This document shows, in pieces, positions 50,882 through 55,030 of a stretch of DNA of 64,000 nucleotides; position 1 is the first letter of the stretch, and each line of letters starts with the position of its first letter. A program made the translations under genes and the position numbers. The stretch comes from Methylobacterium sp. AMS5 (GTDB lineage: Bacteria > Pseudomonadota > Alphaproteobacteria > Rhizobiales > Beijerinckiaceae), in the NCBI RefSeq assembly GCF_001542815.1, contig NZ_CP006992.1, forward strand, positions 3,167,501-3,231,500. The letters are read 5' to 3'. The notes beneath the pieces were generated by a model. It made no database searches and had not been told where the DNA came from. It saw only the letters and a program-made list of their open reading frames with translations.

Positions 50882-51015
50882 CGGGTTTCGTATCGACTCA
50901 GCGGTTGGCACCATGCGGAAGCCGTGTTGACCCTCCCGGCTCGACCCCCTATTGCGAGCCCCACGCCCCGAGCGCAACCGGCCCGCCCCCCGGCGGCCCC
51001 GCGCGAACCGGGTGC

Positions 51016-51091
<76 letters not shown>

Positions 51092-51428
51092 TTATTTTCT
51101 ATTGTCTATCAGTGACTTGCTGAGATCAGCCGGCGTCTGCGCAAATTTGGCTCTTTTTCTACGCACATGTCGCTTGCCCACGTTCGCGTCGCTAATGCCA
51201 TAAGCAGTGCCGCAGCGAGCCAGTGCTCACCTCGTATGGCTCACCTCGGCCTAGAATGCCTTGAGCTGTCAGGCTAACGACCAGTCGCGCCACCATCATG
51301 TAACTGGCCCTCATATCACGACCTAGAGATGTGAATGGGGACGGCTGCGAATCACCCTTGAAGCACCTCCTCCGAAGAGCCTACCAATCTGCCCGAACCG
51401 AGTTGAAAAACCGAAACTGGGGCGGGAA
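51092..51428. other. Intergenic start of the AT-rich insertion, with degraded frames
   Basis: About 340 bases between the tRNA and the ATPase-nuclease gene, less GC-rich than the host. On the minus strand two short frames overlap: one (51192-51314, 40 residues, MRASYMMVARLVVSLTAQG...) and another ending TAA exactly at the tRNA boundary (51092-51226, with GTAYGISDANVGKRHVRRKR). The second recalls the GISD..V.K helix-turn-helix motif of small regulators in rhizobial mobile elements. They may be pieces of one decayed gene. No integrase remnant is recognisable. Confidence 0.3.
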
Positions 51429-53579
51429 ATGCCAACTCTAACGACCGATCTTATCGGGCGCGTGAGGCGATTGTCGTTGAAGCCATCCGCAACCTCTGCG
51501 TTGATGCCGTTATTTGAAGCTGTATCAAATGGTCTTCATGCCATTGACGACCTGCATCGCGACAAAGCGCGTGAGCAGGGCAAAATCATAATTGAAGTTT
51601 TTCGAGCAGATCCCAAAAAACCTAGTTCCGACGTCATCGGGTTTGCCGTCACAGACAACGGCATTGGTCTTAATGACGACAATTATGCTTCTTTCTTGAA
51701 GCCAGACTCTCAGCATAAATTTCAACGTGGTGGCAAGGGAGTTGGCCGGCTAGGCTGGCTCAAGGTTTTCCGCGACATCCGCGTCGACAGTACGTACGTA
51801 GATAAAGATGGAAAGGCGGCTATCCGCTCGTTCGATTTTGTATTGAGGGAAGACGAGCAAGTTTTGCTACACTCTAATGTCGTTCCGTCACAGACAGGGC
51901 CGGGCACCCGAGTATCTTTGAAGACCTACGACACTGCTTACGGCTCAAAATGCCCCGTCGACCCAGCAACATTGCGGCAGAAAGTTATCGGCCACTTTAT
52001 GCAGCTTTTAGCGGCAGAGTTGGCTCCGTCGATCACATTGAATGACGGAATTGAAACTACCGATATCAAGTTGGCATTTAAGGATCTGGTGAAAAATACT
52101 GCCGAGCAAAATGTCAACGTATCTCTTAGCGATGGTGTCAACGTCAATTTATCCATCCGCCATATTAGAGCTTCAAAAGCTATTCGACCCGACACAAACA
52201 AAAAAGCATATAATTGGCTTTTTCTAGCAGCAAATGATCGCGCAGTCGAAGAAACTGTTATTGATGACGCAATTGGGCTTAAAGCCCTTGATGGCGATGA
52301 TGTTTATATTGGCTGTGTCTCGGGCGAACATTTGGATGCCCACGTAAATCAAGAACGCACAGGTTTCAGTTTTGACGCGACGGAAAGTCGCGAAATCAGG
52401 CGCGCTCTACAAGCTTCTGTAATGGGGTACCTAGACTCATACGTCGGGCGTCTAAAAGAGCGCAAGCGCAAGCTCGTGCAACAGGTAATTGAGGAGTATC
52501 CTCAGTTTTTATACTTGCAAGGCGAGATGGAAAATTTCGTAAGCAAGTTAGCACCAGGCGCAACTTCCAGAGAAGCCGTCTTCGTTGAGATGTGCCGGCA
52601 CCGTTTCCGCCGCAACAATCAAGAGCACCACAATATTGAGGAAGTGGTGAAAGCCGGAACAAAACTCACAGACGAGCTCAAAAGAAAAGCCGAAAAATAT
52701 AGAAAATTTGTACAAGATCAACAGCGCGGAGTACTCGCTGAATACGTATTGATGAGAAAAAGTGTTATCGATATTTTGGATCGTTATGCGGAATATCAAG
52801 ACGGTACCTCGAAACATCACCTTGAAGAAGCAGTCCATAAGTTAATAGTTCCTATGCGAACGGATTCCGCAGCGCTAGACATAGGTGACCACAACCTCTG
52901 GCTCATAGATGACCGATTAGCCTTCTTTGCGCATTTTGCCTCAGACCGCCCGCTCAAGACCTATACGGACAACCCTTCACTAGATCGCCCTGACATTGCG
53001 TTCTTCTACGACACCTGTTTTGCTTGGCGGGAACAAGAGGCAGCAAACACGGTAGTGCTAGTCGAGTTCAAGCGTCCGTCCAGAGACAATTACGACGGCG
53101 AAGACAATCCGGTCAAACAAGTAATCGGCTACATTAAGAAATTCAAAACATCAACATCTTTAAAAGATACAAAGGGAAGACAATTATCGCCGAATCTTAA
53201 GAATGCTGCATTTCATTGCTATGTCGTAGCGGATATTACCGACTCGCTCCGCGAGGCTATCGAAGGATATCGCTTCCATGAGACACCGGACGGGCAAGGC
53301 TTGATCGGATACCTAAACAACCCAGATGCGGTAGTAGAAATTATATCATACCCAAAGCTTTTAGCAGATGCAAAAATGCGCAATAGTATCTTCTTTCAAA
53401 AACTCGGCATTACCAACGTTGACCCTTCGTCAGACTACAGCAAGGATTCATCTATCGCGATAGAAGACGTACTAGCAGAAAGCGACGCCGTAGCTCCGAA
53501 GCATTTGACTCAAGACTCTGTTAAATTGGAAGGCTCCACCGAGTCCACATTCACAGAACAAGCAGAAACTAATATATAG
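51429..53579 (+). CDS. GHKL (Hsp90/MutL/MORC-type) ATPase fused to PD-(D/E)XK nuclease-like domain; candidate defence gene
   Basis: A 716-residue soluble protein. Residues 20-170 form a complete Bergerat ATP-binding fold: N-box LFEAVSNGLHAID with Glu 30 and Asn 34, DNGIG at 76-80, the ATP-lid GGKGVGRLG at 101-109 and GPGTRV at 157-162. Residues 175-330 resemble the transducer region of GHL ATPases, with a helical linker at 330-450. The C-terminal part has a nuclease-like layout: LEEAVHKL near 465, PDIAFF with Pro-Asp 521-522, VLVEFKRP with Glu 546 and Lys 548, and QVIGY (QxxxY) at 564-568. ATP-gated DNA cleavage is inferred. Codon use is strikingly AT-rich (many AAA, ATA, TTA) unlike all neighbours, and it sits beside tRNA-Lys, signs of horizontal transfer. 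GGGGCGGG lies just before the ATG. No partner gene is present, so it may work alone. Confidence 0.75.
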   Translation: MPTLTTDLIGRVRRLSLKPSATSALMPLFEAVSNGLHAIDDLHRDKAREQGKIIIEVFRADPKKPSSDVIGFAVTDNGIGLNDDNYASFLKPDSQHKFQRGGKGVGRLGWLKVFRDIRVDSTYVDKDGKAAIRSFDFVLREDEQVLLHSNVVPSQTGPGTRVSLKTYDTAYGSKCPVDPATLRQKVIGHFMQLLAAELAPSITLNDGIETTDIKLAFKDLVKNTAEQNVNVSLSDGVNVNLSIRHIRASKAIRPDTNKKAYNWLFLAANDRAVEETVIDDAIGLKALDGDDVYIGCVSGEHLDAHVNQERTGFSFDATESREIRRALQASVMGYLDSYVGRLKERKRKLVQQVIEEYPQFLYLQGEMENFVSKLAPGATSREAVFVEMCRHRFRRNNQEHHNIEEVVKAGTKLTDELKRKAEKYRKFVQDQQRGVLAEYVLMRKSVIDILDRYAEYQDGTSKHHLEEAVHKLIVPMRTDSAALDIGDHNLWLIDDRLAFFAHFASDRPLKTYTDNPSLDRPDIAFFYDTCFAWREQEAANTVVLVEFKRPSRDNYDGEDNPVKQVIGYIKKFKTSTSLKDTKGRQLSPNLKNAAFHCYVVADITDSLREAIEGYRFHETPDGQGLIGYLNNPDAVVEIISYPKLLADAKMRNSIFFQKLGITNVDPSSDYSKDSSIAIEDVLAESDAVAPKHLTQDSVKLEGSTESTFTEQAETNI

Positions 53580-53695
53580 CCCACAATGCAGTCGACATAA
53601 AACTCTATTAGAAATTATGGCGTGCTGTCGCTTTCAGAGCGTTGATCGTTAGCGACCGGGCAGCCATCCCGGCGCGAACGATACGCGAGACCCCC

Positions 53696-55030
53696 ATGGA
53701 CACCCCACCGGCTCCCACGCTGCACGCCCTCCGCCGCGGCGACCTCGCCGGGGCCAAAGTACTACGCCTGAGCGGAACACTAAAAGAAGTCCCGCCCGAA
53801 ATTTTCGGCCTCGCCGACACCCTGGAGCTGCTGGATCTCAGCGATTGCGGCCTCACCGCACTCCCGGATGACATCGGCCGGCTCAAGCGGCTGCGCGTCC
53901 TGTTCTGCTCGGGCAATCGCTTCGAACGGCTGCCGCCCGCCCTCGGGGATTGTCCGGCGCTGAGCCAGATCGGGTTCCGCGCCACCGGCTTGCGCGAGGT
54001 GCCGGGCGAGGCGCTGCCGCCGGCCCTGCGCTGGCTCACGCTGACCGACAACCGAATCGCGCATCTGCCCGACGCCCTCGGCCGGCGCCCGCACCTGCAG
54101 AAGCTGATGCTGGCGGGAAACCGGCTGGAGGCGCTGCCACCCTCGCTCGAAGGCGCACCAAGCCTCGAATTGCTGCGCCTCTCCGCCAACCGCTTCGCGG
54201 CATTGCCCGCTTGGCTGACGGCTTTGCCGCGGCTCGCCTGGATCGCCTGGGCCGGCAACCCCCTCGACGGCGAGCCGGTGCCGGCCCGCGTGCCGCAGGT
54301 GCCCTGGGACGCGCTCGCGCTCGGCCCCTGCCTCGGCGAGGGCGCCTCGGGGCGGATTCACCGGGCTTTGTGGCGGCGGCCGGACGGGGAGGCGGCGGTC
54401 GCGGTCAAGCTGTTCAAGGGCCGCATGACCAGCGACGGGCTGCCCGAGCAGGAGATGGCGGCCTGCCTCGCCGCCGGCCGGCATCCCCACCTCACCGGCG
54501 CGCTCGGGCGGATCGAGGGGCATCCGGACGGGGTGCAGGGGCTCTTGATGCCGCTGATCCCGGAGGGCTGGCGGGTTCTGGCCGGATCGCCGAGCCTGGA
54601 GAGTTGCAGCCGCGACGTCTACGCGCCGGACTTCGCCCTGCCGCCGGAGACGGCTCTGCGCATCGCGGCCGGCGTGGCGCGGGCGGCGGCCCATCTTCAC
54701 GGCTGCGGTGTGCTCCACGGCGACCTCTACGGCCACAACACCCTGTGGGACGGGGGCGCGGGCGAGGCGGTGCTCAGCGATTTCGGGGCCGCCTCCGTGC
54801 TGCCGCGCGGCGAGGCCGGCGCCTCCTGGCAGCGCGTCGAGACCCGCGCCTGGGGCATCCTGCTCGGCGAATTGCTCGACCATTGCGCGACCGAACCCGC
54901 CGGCATCGCGGATTGGCGCGCGCTGGCGCAGGCCTGCCGGGGGGCCGATGCGCGGGCGCTCCCGTCGATGGCGGAGGTTGTGCGCACCATATCCCCGCTT
55001 CTGTCGCGGGATCGTCACGCGGATGCGTGA
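53696..55030 (+). CDS. Leucine-rich-repeat protein kinase
   Basis: A 444-residue cytoplasmic protein. Residues 20-195 contain about seven leucine-rich repeats (for example LELLDLSDCGLTALPDDI, LQKLMLAGNRLEALPPSL). The remainder is a protein-kinase fold: a degenerate glycine loop LGEGASGRIH, VAVKLFKG with the ATP lysine, HGDLYGHNTLWD (HRD-like, with Gly for Arg) and SDFGAAS (DFG). The activation-loop APE motif is not obvious and the C-lobe is short. Similar LRR-kinases are scattered in Proteobacteria with unknown substrates. ATG 53696 is chosen from the start of the first repeat unit. It is followed, 99 bases later, by the CYTH-CHAD gene. Confidence 0.8.
   Translation: MDTPPAPTLHALRRGDLAGAKVLRLSGTLKEVPPEIFGLADTLELLDLSDCGLTALPDDIGRLKRLRVLFCSGNRFERLPPALGDCPALSQIGFRATGLREVPGEALPPALRWLTLTDNRIAHLPDALGRRPHLQKLMLAGNRLEALPPSLEGAPSLELLRLSANRFAALPAWLTALPRLAWIAWAGNPLDGEPVPARVPQVPWDALALGPCLGEGASGRIHRALWRRPDGEAAVAVKLFKGRMTSDGLPEQEMAACLAAGRHPHLTGALGRIEGHPDGVQGLLMPLIPEGWRVLAGSPSLESCSRDVYAPDFALPPETALRIAAGVARAAAHLHGCGVLHGDLYGHNTLWDGGAGEAVLSDFGAASVLPRGEAGASWQRVETRAWGILLGELLDHCATEPAGIADWRALAQACRGADARALPSMAEVVRTISPLLSRDRHADA

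Follow-up and report, generated by a model that had tools for sequence, protein, structure and literature searches.

The window analyzed here, a 64,000-nucleotide stretch of Methylobacterium sp. AMS5 (contig NZ_CP006992.1), contains a gene that a preliminary description, made from the sequence alone, had presented as a stand-alone ATPase fused to a nuclease-like domain. The gene under study is an open reading frame (ORF) on the forward strand (51429-53579) that starts with ATG and encodes 716 amino acids in a single uninterrupted frame. It is indeed alone between a tRNA-Lys gene and a gene for a leucine-rich-repeat (LRR) kinase, and the AT-rich island noted at this place was confirmed (45-51% GC in 500-base windows vs. 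about 69-76% in the flanks).

The motifs assigned to the protein were all found at the residues named earlier: E30, N34, D76-N77-G78-I79-G80, GGKGVGRLG (101-109), and GPGT (157-160) in the Bergerat-fold ATPase part, and P521-D522, E546-F547-K548, Q564, and Y568 in the nuclease-like part. As in the GHKL family, we take E30 to be the general base and N34 to be the Mg-binding residue. All motifs were conserved in alignment A1, which comprises 39 sequences (the window protein and 38 of 120 listed homologues). The invariant residues of its ATPase part were E30, N34, D76, N77, G78, and G80, together with G101, G102, G104, G106, R107, L108, G109, G159, and T160; those of its C-terminal part were P521, D522, E546, F547, K548, Q564, and Y568. 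Most of them were also conserved in alignment A4, whose 26 rows are the window protein and, at 28-78% identity to it, 14 plasmid relatives and 11 of 13 viral-contig relatives (the other two, L063 and L066, have a stop within the matched stretch of each). Here, E30, N34, D76, G78, G80, G101, G104, G106, R107, and R310 were invariant in the N-terminal part, and E466, H470, D494, D522, E546, K548, Q564, and D602 in the C-terminal part. Y568 was nearly invariant, and G159 and T160 varied. E466 is an additional invariant acid that lies N-terminal to the previously listed nuclease array. Because the motif residues are invariant in A1 and A4, we ruled out that they are chance matches.

In a fold search, the ATPase-transducer model resembled MutL, Hsp90, MORC, SMCHD1, and Topo VI B, as expected from the proposal of a GHL ATPase with a transducer-like middle; for the ATPase part, MutL was top by Z and the Hsp90 rows were tied with it. 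The MutL N-terminal 40 kDa structures aligned within model residues 1-336 and so cover an S5-type transducer, and we propose that R310 may extend to the ATP phosphate, as the basic residue does in MutL or Hsp90 transducers. Since the fold search with the whole model covered residues 1-378 only, a separate model was made of the C-terminal part. Its fold rows were tied and headed by restriction-type nucleases; among them, Shedu SduA of E. coli (8ps4) ranked first, with 148 residues aligned, and the nuclease domain of B. cereus Shedu (8ti9) sixth, with 142 residues aligned; identity to the Shedu structures 8ps4/8ti9 was 14-17%. In the domain model, ExK lies within or abuts the strand 87-93, and Q and Y lie on the helix 107-119 (domain numbering). 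The protein has the residues of the PD-(D/E)XK superfamily, namely a conserved acid, ExK at a strand, and Q in the helix that follows. The proposal of a PD-(D/E)XK-like C-terminus was supported, with E466, D522, E546, K548, and Q564 invariant in 26 sequences. The coordinates are collected in Table 1.

Table 1. Features of the gene and its surroundings in the window.
Feature	Position	Strand	Basis or remark
Whole gene: GHKL ATPase, transducer, helical linker, PD-(D/E)XK-like nuclease	51429..53579	+	ORF, conservation, models
Bergerat-fold ATPase domain, residues ~1-214	51429..52070	+	
GHKL motif I, E30 to N34	51516..51530	+	invariant in 39 and 26 sequences
DNGIG, residues 76-80	51654..51668	+	D76, G78, G80 invariant in 26
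ATP-lid motif GGKGVGRLG, residues 101-109	51729..51755	+	G101, G104, G106, R107 invariant in 26
GPGT, residues 157-160	51897..51908	+	G159, T160 invariant in A1 (39), not in the wider set
Transducer (S5-like) domain, residues ~215-336	52071..52436	+	model; MutL rows align within 1-336
N307-Q-E-R310	52347..52358	+	R310 invariant in 26
Long helical linker, residues ~337-455	52437..52793	+	model helices; second half of lower confidence
PD-(D/E)XK-like nuclease domain, residues ~456-661	52794..53411	+	
E466, first acid of the E-D-ExK set	52824..52826	+	invariant in 26
P521-D522	52989..52994	+	D522 invariant in 26
E546-F547-K548	53064..53072	+	E546, K548 invariant in 26
Q564-x-x-x-Y568	53118..53132	+	Q564 invariant, Y568 nearly, in 26
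Disordered tail, residues 663-716	53415..53576	+	predicted local distance difference test (pLDDT) <50; unconserved in A1
tRNA-Lys(TTT), left border of the foreign island	51016..51091	+	
Island between tRNA-Lys and the LRR-kinase gene	51092..53650	.	without integrase ORF; without second copy of the tRNA 3' end
LRR-kinase gene: leucine-rich repeats, then protein kinase domain	53696-55030		Pfam LRR_8 E 1.9e-18, PK_Tyr_Ser-Thr E 1.7e-8

Among 5.8 billion proteins, a search scored 7997 candidates, of which 1009 were relatives at E up to 1e-3. The 120 relatives listed were 44-91% identical to the window protein; the top match (91%) is named as coming from Methylorubrum populi, and the closest named relatives are alphaproteobacterial. 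Matches were present in 11 of 111 genomes of the genus, two of them only in two separate pieces and one over 46 residues only, and in 15 of 298 sampled genomes of the family, several of them partial; both counts include the own genome. By tblastn against 72,556 plasmid records, 60 matched at E up to 0.01, 48 of which have one place covering at least 80% of the protein, and a scan of IMG/VR viral contigs gave 13 loci. The gene is thus patchy and mobile, being found on plasmids and viral contigs. The single match in a phage collection (50,697 records) was 24% identical over 89% of the protein (ON245412.1, 40028-41995) and is annotated as N-acetylmuramoyl-L-alanine amidase. Two genus copies (L009 and L010, in genomes G090 and G027) each have one in-frame TGA within the matched stretch, which suggests gene turnover.

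Plasmid neighborhoods were read for 14 of the 60 records, hand-chosen for taxonomic spread, and compared with 12 hand-chosen control stretches from 12 of the same plasmids, the Ti and Vibrio fluvialis plasmids having no control. The flanks read were usually 5 kb (6 kb for a record with type I restriction-modification (R-M) and Shedu, 10 kb for one AAA/helicase record). The neighborhood survey suggested in the preliminary description came out in favor of defense. On a strict list (restriction enzymes or named R-M subunits, abortive-infection (Abi) proteins, SAVED/CBASS, SIR2, TIR, and named Shedu, within about 5 kb), defense genes were present by name in 7 of the 14 neighborhoods vs. 0 of the 12 controls. 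These seven contained Abi; TIR; type I R-M (two); type I R-M plus a separate Shedu; a CBASS-like set (SAVED/ThiF/Mov34/nucleotidyltransferase); and SIR2 plus XamI. AAA and helicase-like pairs lie near the homologue in two more plasmids, and if these are read as Gabija-like the count is 9 of 14. On the V. fluvialis plasmid (L019 1-8016), a type I R-M operon is joined by an extra AAA ATPase gene, a stand-alone Shedu nuclease gene, and a gene resembling paraMORC3; the Shedu and paraMORC3-like genes share 4 bases. This order recurs in Salinivibrio, where the Shedu gene is missing. Vibrio cholerae matches are 91-96% identical to this R-M-linked V. fluvialis form, and we do not claim them as VcSduA, a protein discussed below. 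Beside the Agrobacterium larrymoorei copy (77%, L003), a DEAD-box helicase gene lies about 60 bases away with HamA behind it (Pfam E 1.7e-60); the two form a Hachiman pair (L003 12139-15160) convergent with the homologue. At the Ancylobacter copy (79%), a YaaC-like gene lies upstream, and a gene for a tyrosine integrase lies some 3 kb downstream.

Two further gene pairs were seen beside homologues. A metallo-β-lactamase-fold gene and a gene of about 620 residues occupy the same place in two genera (L003 5722-8903, L004 5719-8891); of these, only the L003 pair was compared with Pfam, where the ~620-residue gene matched no family. On Agrobacterium and Rhizobium plasmids (L049 3256-4892, L056 3191-4857), genes annotated as DUF1403 and ScpB lie directly upstream of the homologue.

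Given that the gene is patchy, occurs on plasmids and viral contigs, and has relatives beside Hachiman, CBASS-like, SIR2, TIR, Abi, and R-M genes, defense is the best reading. We consider it likely that the gene encodes a one-protein anti-phage (or anti-plasmid) nuclease of the paraMORC3/GHKL-ATPase Shedu kind and is the only cargo of its tRNA-Lys slot. It is probably an intact, working defense gene, and its domain order, likened by description to VcSduA and paraMORC3, appears to be one already described. Five of the 14 plasmid neighborhoods contained no defense genes (one of them has a VapC toxin and an integrase), and the control count rises to 2 of 12 on a looser list (one stretch with two cytosine methyltransferases, one with a caspase-family gene) and to 4 of 12 on the loosest, which adds an HNH endonuclease and a reverse transcriptase.

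The earlier proposal of an ATP-gated nuclease is likely. ATP binding would lead two copies to pair through their N-terminal ATPase heads, and a MutL/MORC-like clamp would close around DNA. R310 in the transducer would read the nucleotide state, the long helical linker would position the C-terminal nuclease pair at the trapped DNA, and the PD-(D/E)XK domain (E466, D522, E546, K548, and Q564) would cut the captured foreign DNA. We infer dimerization, clamp closure, cutting of phage DNA, the trigger, and the choice between self and non-self by analogy with MutL, MORC, and VcSduA. If the clamp model is true, the protein would offer a simple one-protein system for how MORC/MutL-type ATPases gate a nuclease. 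A bolder version, to which we give a low probability, is that the protein belongs to a separate GHKL-nuclease defense branch that is invisible to profiles and whose nuclease is not a true Shedu. The ATP-closed clamp would then be the sensor, and topological capture of DNA, not its sequence or modification, would trigger cutting.

Among other explanations, the nuclease, once triggered, could degrade host DNA unselectively and kill the infected cell; the fold rows of the C-terminal model also list entries for NucC, Can2, and Card1, effectors that can act abortively. VcSduA, however, was protective at all multiplicities tested, which its authors read as direct restriction in the available text (PMC12137116), and we regard an abortive system as unlikely. 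Still more doubtful is an accessory subunit serving an R-M system elsewhere in the genome, rather than a complete system. In V. fluvialis and Salinivibrio, type I R-M operons end with a relative of the gene, and paraMORC2-5 were found through R-M operons, according to the accessible part of PMC2292703. The window gene, however, is alone in its slot, the same part of that paper describes some paraMORC3 genes as stand-alone without conserved neighbors, and VcSduA defends alone (PMC12137116, available text).

The leading Z of MutL for the ATPase part, with Hsp90 tied, would suit a housekeeping DNA repair protein of the MutL or topoisomerase type. We rejected this reading on account of the patchiness (11 of 111 genus and 15 of 298 family genomes) and consider it highly improbable; the gene is also mobile and of foreign composition, and no syntenic copy conserved across the genus appeared. 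It is just as improbable that the gene is a decaying, inactive import. In-frame stops do occur in the copies of 2 of the 11 matching genus genomes, whereas the frame of the window copy is uninterrupted and lacks none of the catalytic residues, and Methylorubrum populi has a recorded protein of 91% identity. A one-protein defense nuclease remains the reading we prefer.

No library tried (Pfam, PADLOC, NCBIfam) names the window protein as a defense family at threshold. Pfam HATPase_c scored under its cut-off (E 0.0016) and was listed for 39 of 39 A1 sequences at E up to 1; minor Pfam matches to Bles03, SpoIISA, DUF6249, and DUF6879 were all below cut-off, and NCBIfam, run on the window protein only, gave a weak EnvZ match (E 0.13). 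In PDB, sequence searches with the window protein and with the C-terminal profile gave no match, and the A1 profile gave three only (E 0.13 or worse), topped by a histidine kinase. PADLOC found nothing in the window protein, and Pfam SduA_C (DUF4263) matched its nuclease domain in the expected stretch and in register, at a score below cut-off (E 0.14; 12.8 bits vs. 27). SduA_C was listed in 2 of 19 C-terminal domains at E up to 1 (HSDR_N in 3 of 19, best 0.0032) and was absent from the families listed for the 39 and for the 26 full-length proteins. PADLOC matches among the relatives were scattered and do not name the family: in A1, LmuA in two sequences (best 2.6e-4) and TmtA, PDC-S26, SduA (0.0035), and five others in one each; in A4, LmuA, TmtA, DruE, and PtuB in one each; and Avs5 in one of the 19 C-terminal domains. 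An hhalign comparison of the C-terminal profile with Shedu alignment A3 (21 sequences, the V. fluvialis protein and 20 of 120 listed relatives) was not significant (P 0.015, probability 3%); despite the low score, ExK, Q, and the C-terminal V-E-I-I/L-L stretch coincide. The full-length profiles gave the same register against A3 (P 0.13 for A1, 0.018 for A4). Because PADLOC and NCBIfam miss the window protein and Pfam stays below its cut-offs, automated surveys probably undercount such genes.

The composition had been taken as support for recent acquisition. The GC content of the gene is 0.467, vs. 0.707 over 5 kb on each side. We compared 40 loci, omitting L001 (the own copy again), L014-L018 (pieces only), and the family loci L072-L085. 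The gene was AT-richer than its own flanks in 38 of them, with a mean difference of 0.07 (0.24 here) in hosts that differ widely in GC. Because the sign is the same in 38 of 40 loci, AT-richness in part characterizes the family and is a poor measure of how recently the gene arrived. Recent acquisition is plausible; low GC supports it less than had been claimed.

The tRNA-Lys gene ends at 51091, 337 bases ahead of the start codon. The LRR-kinase DNA matches 108 of the 111 genus genomes at E up to 0.001, some by short pieces only, and the slot was surveyed in 13 of these (ranks 3-15 by that match; at rank 2, G060, the contig ends there). The tRNA-Lys was present in 8 of the 13 stretches (2.7-20 kb) upstream of the kinase gene, with tRNA-to-kinase gaps of about 0.66, 0.83, 1.0, 2.2, 6.5, 6.5, 12.8, and 16.8 kb and differing contents. 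In one species the slot holds 2.2 kb of AT-rich inserted DNA whose two genes match no Pfam family, and another carries AT-rich genes that include one for a SocA/Panacea-domain protein (E 5.1e-18). A ninth stretch has an exact copy of the last 46 tRNA-Lys bases without the full tRNA, which is what integration into tRNA-Lys would leave; in the other 4 of 13 genomes, no tRNA-Lys lies within the fetched stretch. The slot is thus a place where species of the genus carry differing small cargo. When the last 23 tRNA bases were searched in the window with up to 3 mismatches, only the tRNA itself matched. With this single match and no att-like repeat, a classical integrase element with direct repeats was ruled out here. 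The leader before the gene, 336 bases long, matches none of the 110 other genus genomes. It has 2 promoter-like sites vs. 3.2 in shuffles and 4 terminator-like sites vs. 3.3 (standard deviation 2.1). A leader RNA element was ruled out, as 50900-53800 contains only the tRNA, and so was a partner gene, the longest leader ORF having 40 residues.

The preliminary description did not recognize the protein as one of the named systems. This was not supported, since the architecture is that of paraMORC3, described by Iyer, Abhiman, and Aravind in 2008 (PMC2292703), and of VcSduA (PMC12137116), as far as the available parts of these papers go. The novelty is that of a divergent member of a described architecture, unnamed by the profile libraries tried. 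In the accessible text of PMC2292703, paraMORC3 combines GHKL, S5, and a C-terminal restriction-endonuclease-fold domain with E-D-ExK, and is sporadic, with a prevalence in proteobacteria and bacteroidetes. Compared with this text description, the window protein fits each described point, having the GHKL motifs, an S5-type transducer, and E-D-ExK (E466, D522, E546, and K548). According to the available text of PMC12137116, VcSduA is a GHKL-ATPase Shedu of enzymatic-domain type I-D from the V. cholerae VSP-II WASA, encoded by a single gene, with N-terminal GHKL ATPase motifs I-IV, a clamp-like middle, and a C-terminal PD-(D/E)XK. It protects E. coli from Drexlerviridae and V. cholerae from X29, E27A (ATPase) or K557A (nuclease) abolishes defense, and the authors relate the protein to both paraMORC3 and Shedu. 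A second paper, also available in part, repeats the Shedu assignment and the phage data. The available text of PMC8011034 mentions neither paraMORC3 nor DUF4263.

By motif, E27 and K557 of VcSduA correspond, in our reading of its description, to E30 and K548 of the window protein. These essential positions of VcSduA resemble the ones seen in relatives, E27 and K556 (V. fluvialis) and E27 and K558 (Acinetobacter). As in the GHKL form of Shedu, one gene encodes both GHKL ATPase motifs and PD-(D/E)XK residues. VcSduA is reported with DUF4263 in the part of PMC12137116 available, whereas the window family is below that Pfam cut-off. The window domain is in register with Shedu SduA (E. coli 8ps4, B. 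cereus 8ti8/8ti9) at ExK, at Q, and along the C-terminal VEII/LL. To our knowledge, these SduA proteins are without a GHKL ATPase. The MORC, MutL, and Hsp90 GHKL ATPases have the ATPase and transducer fold in common with the window protein, and we know of no C-terminal nuclease domain of the window type in them. The present analysis extends the paraMORC3/VcSduA defense architecture to a divergent, mobile group.
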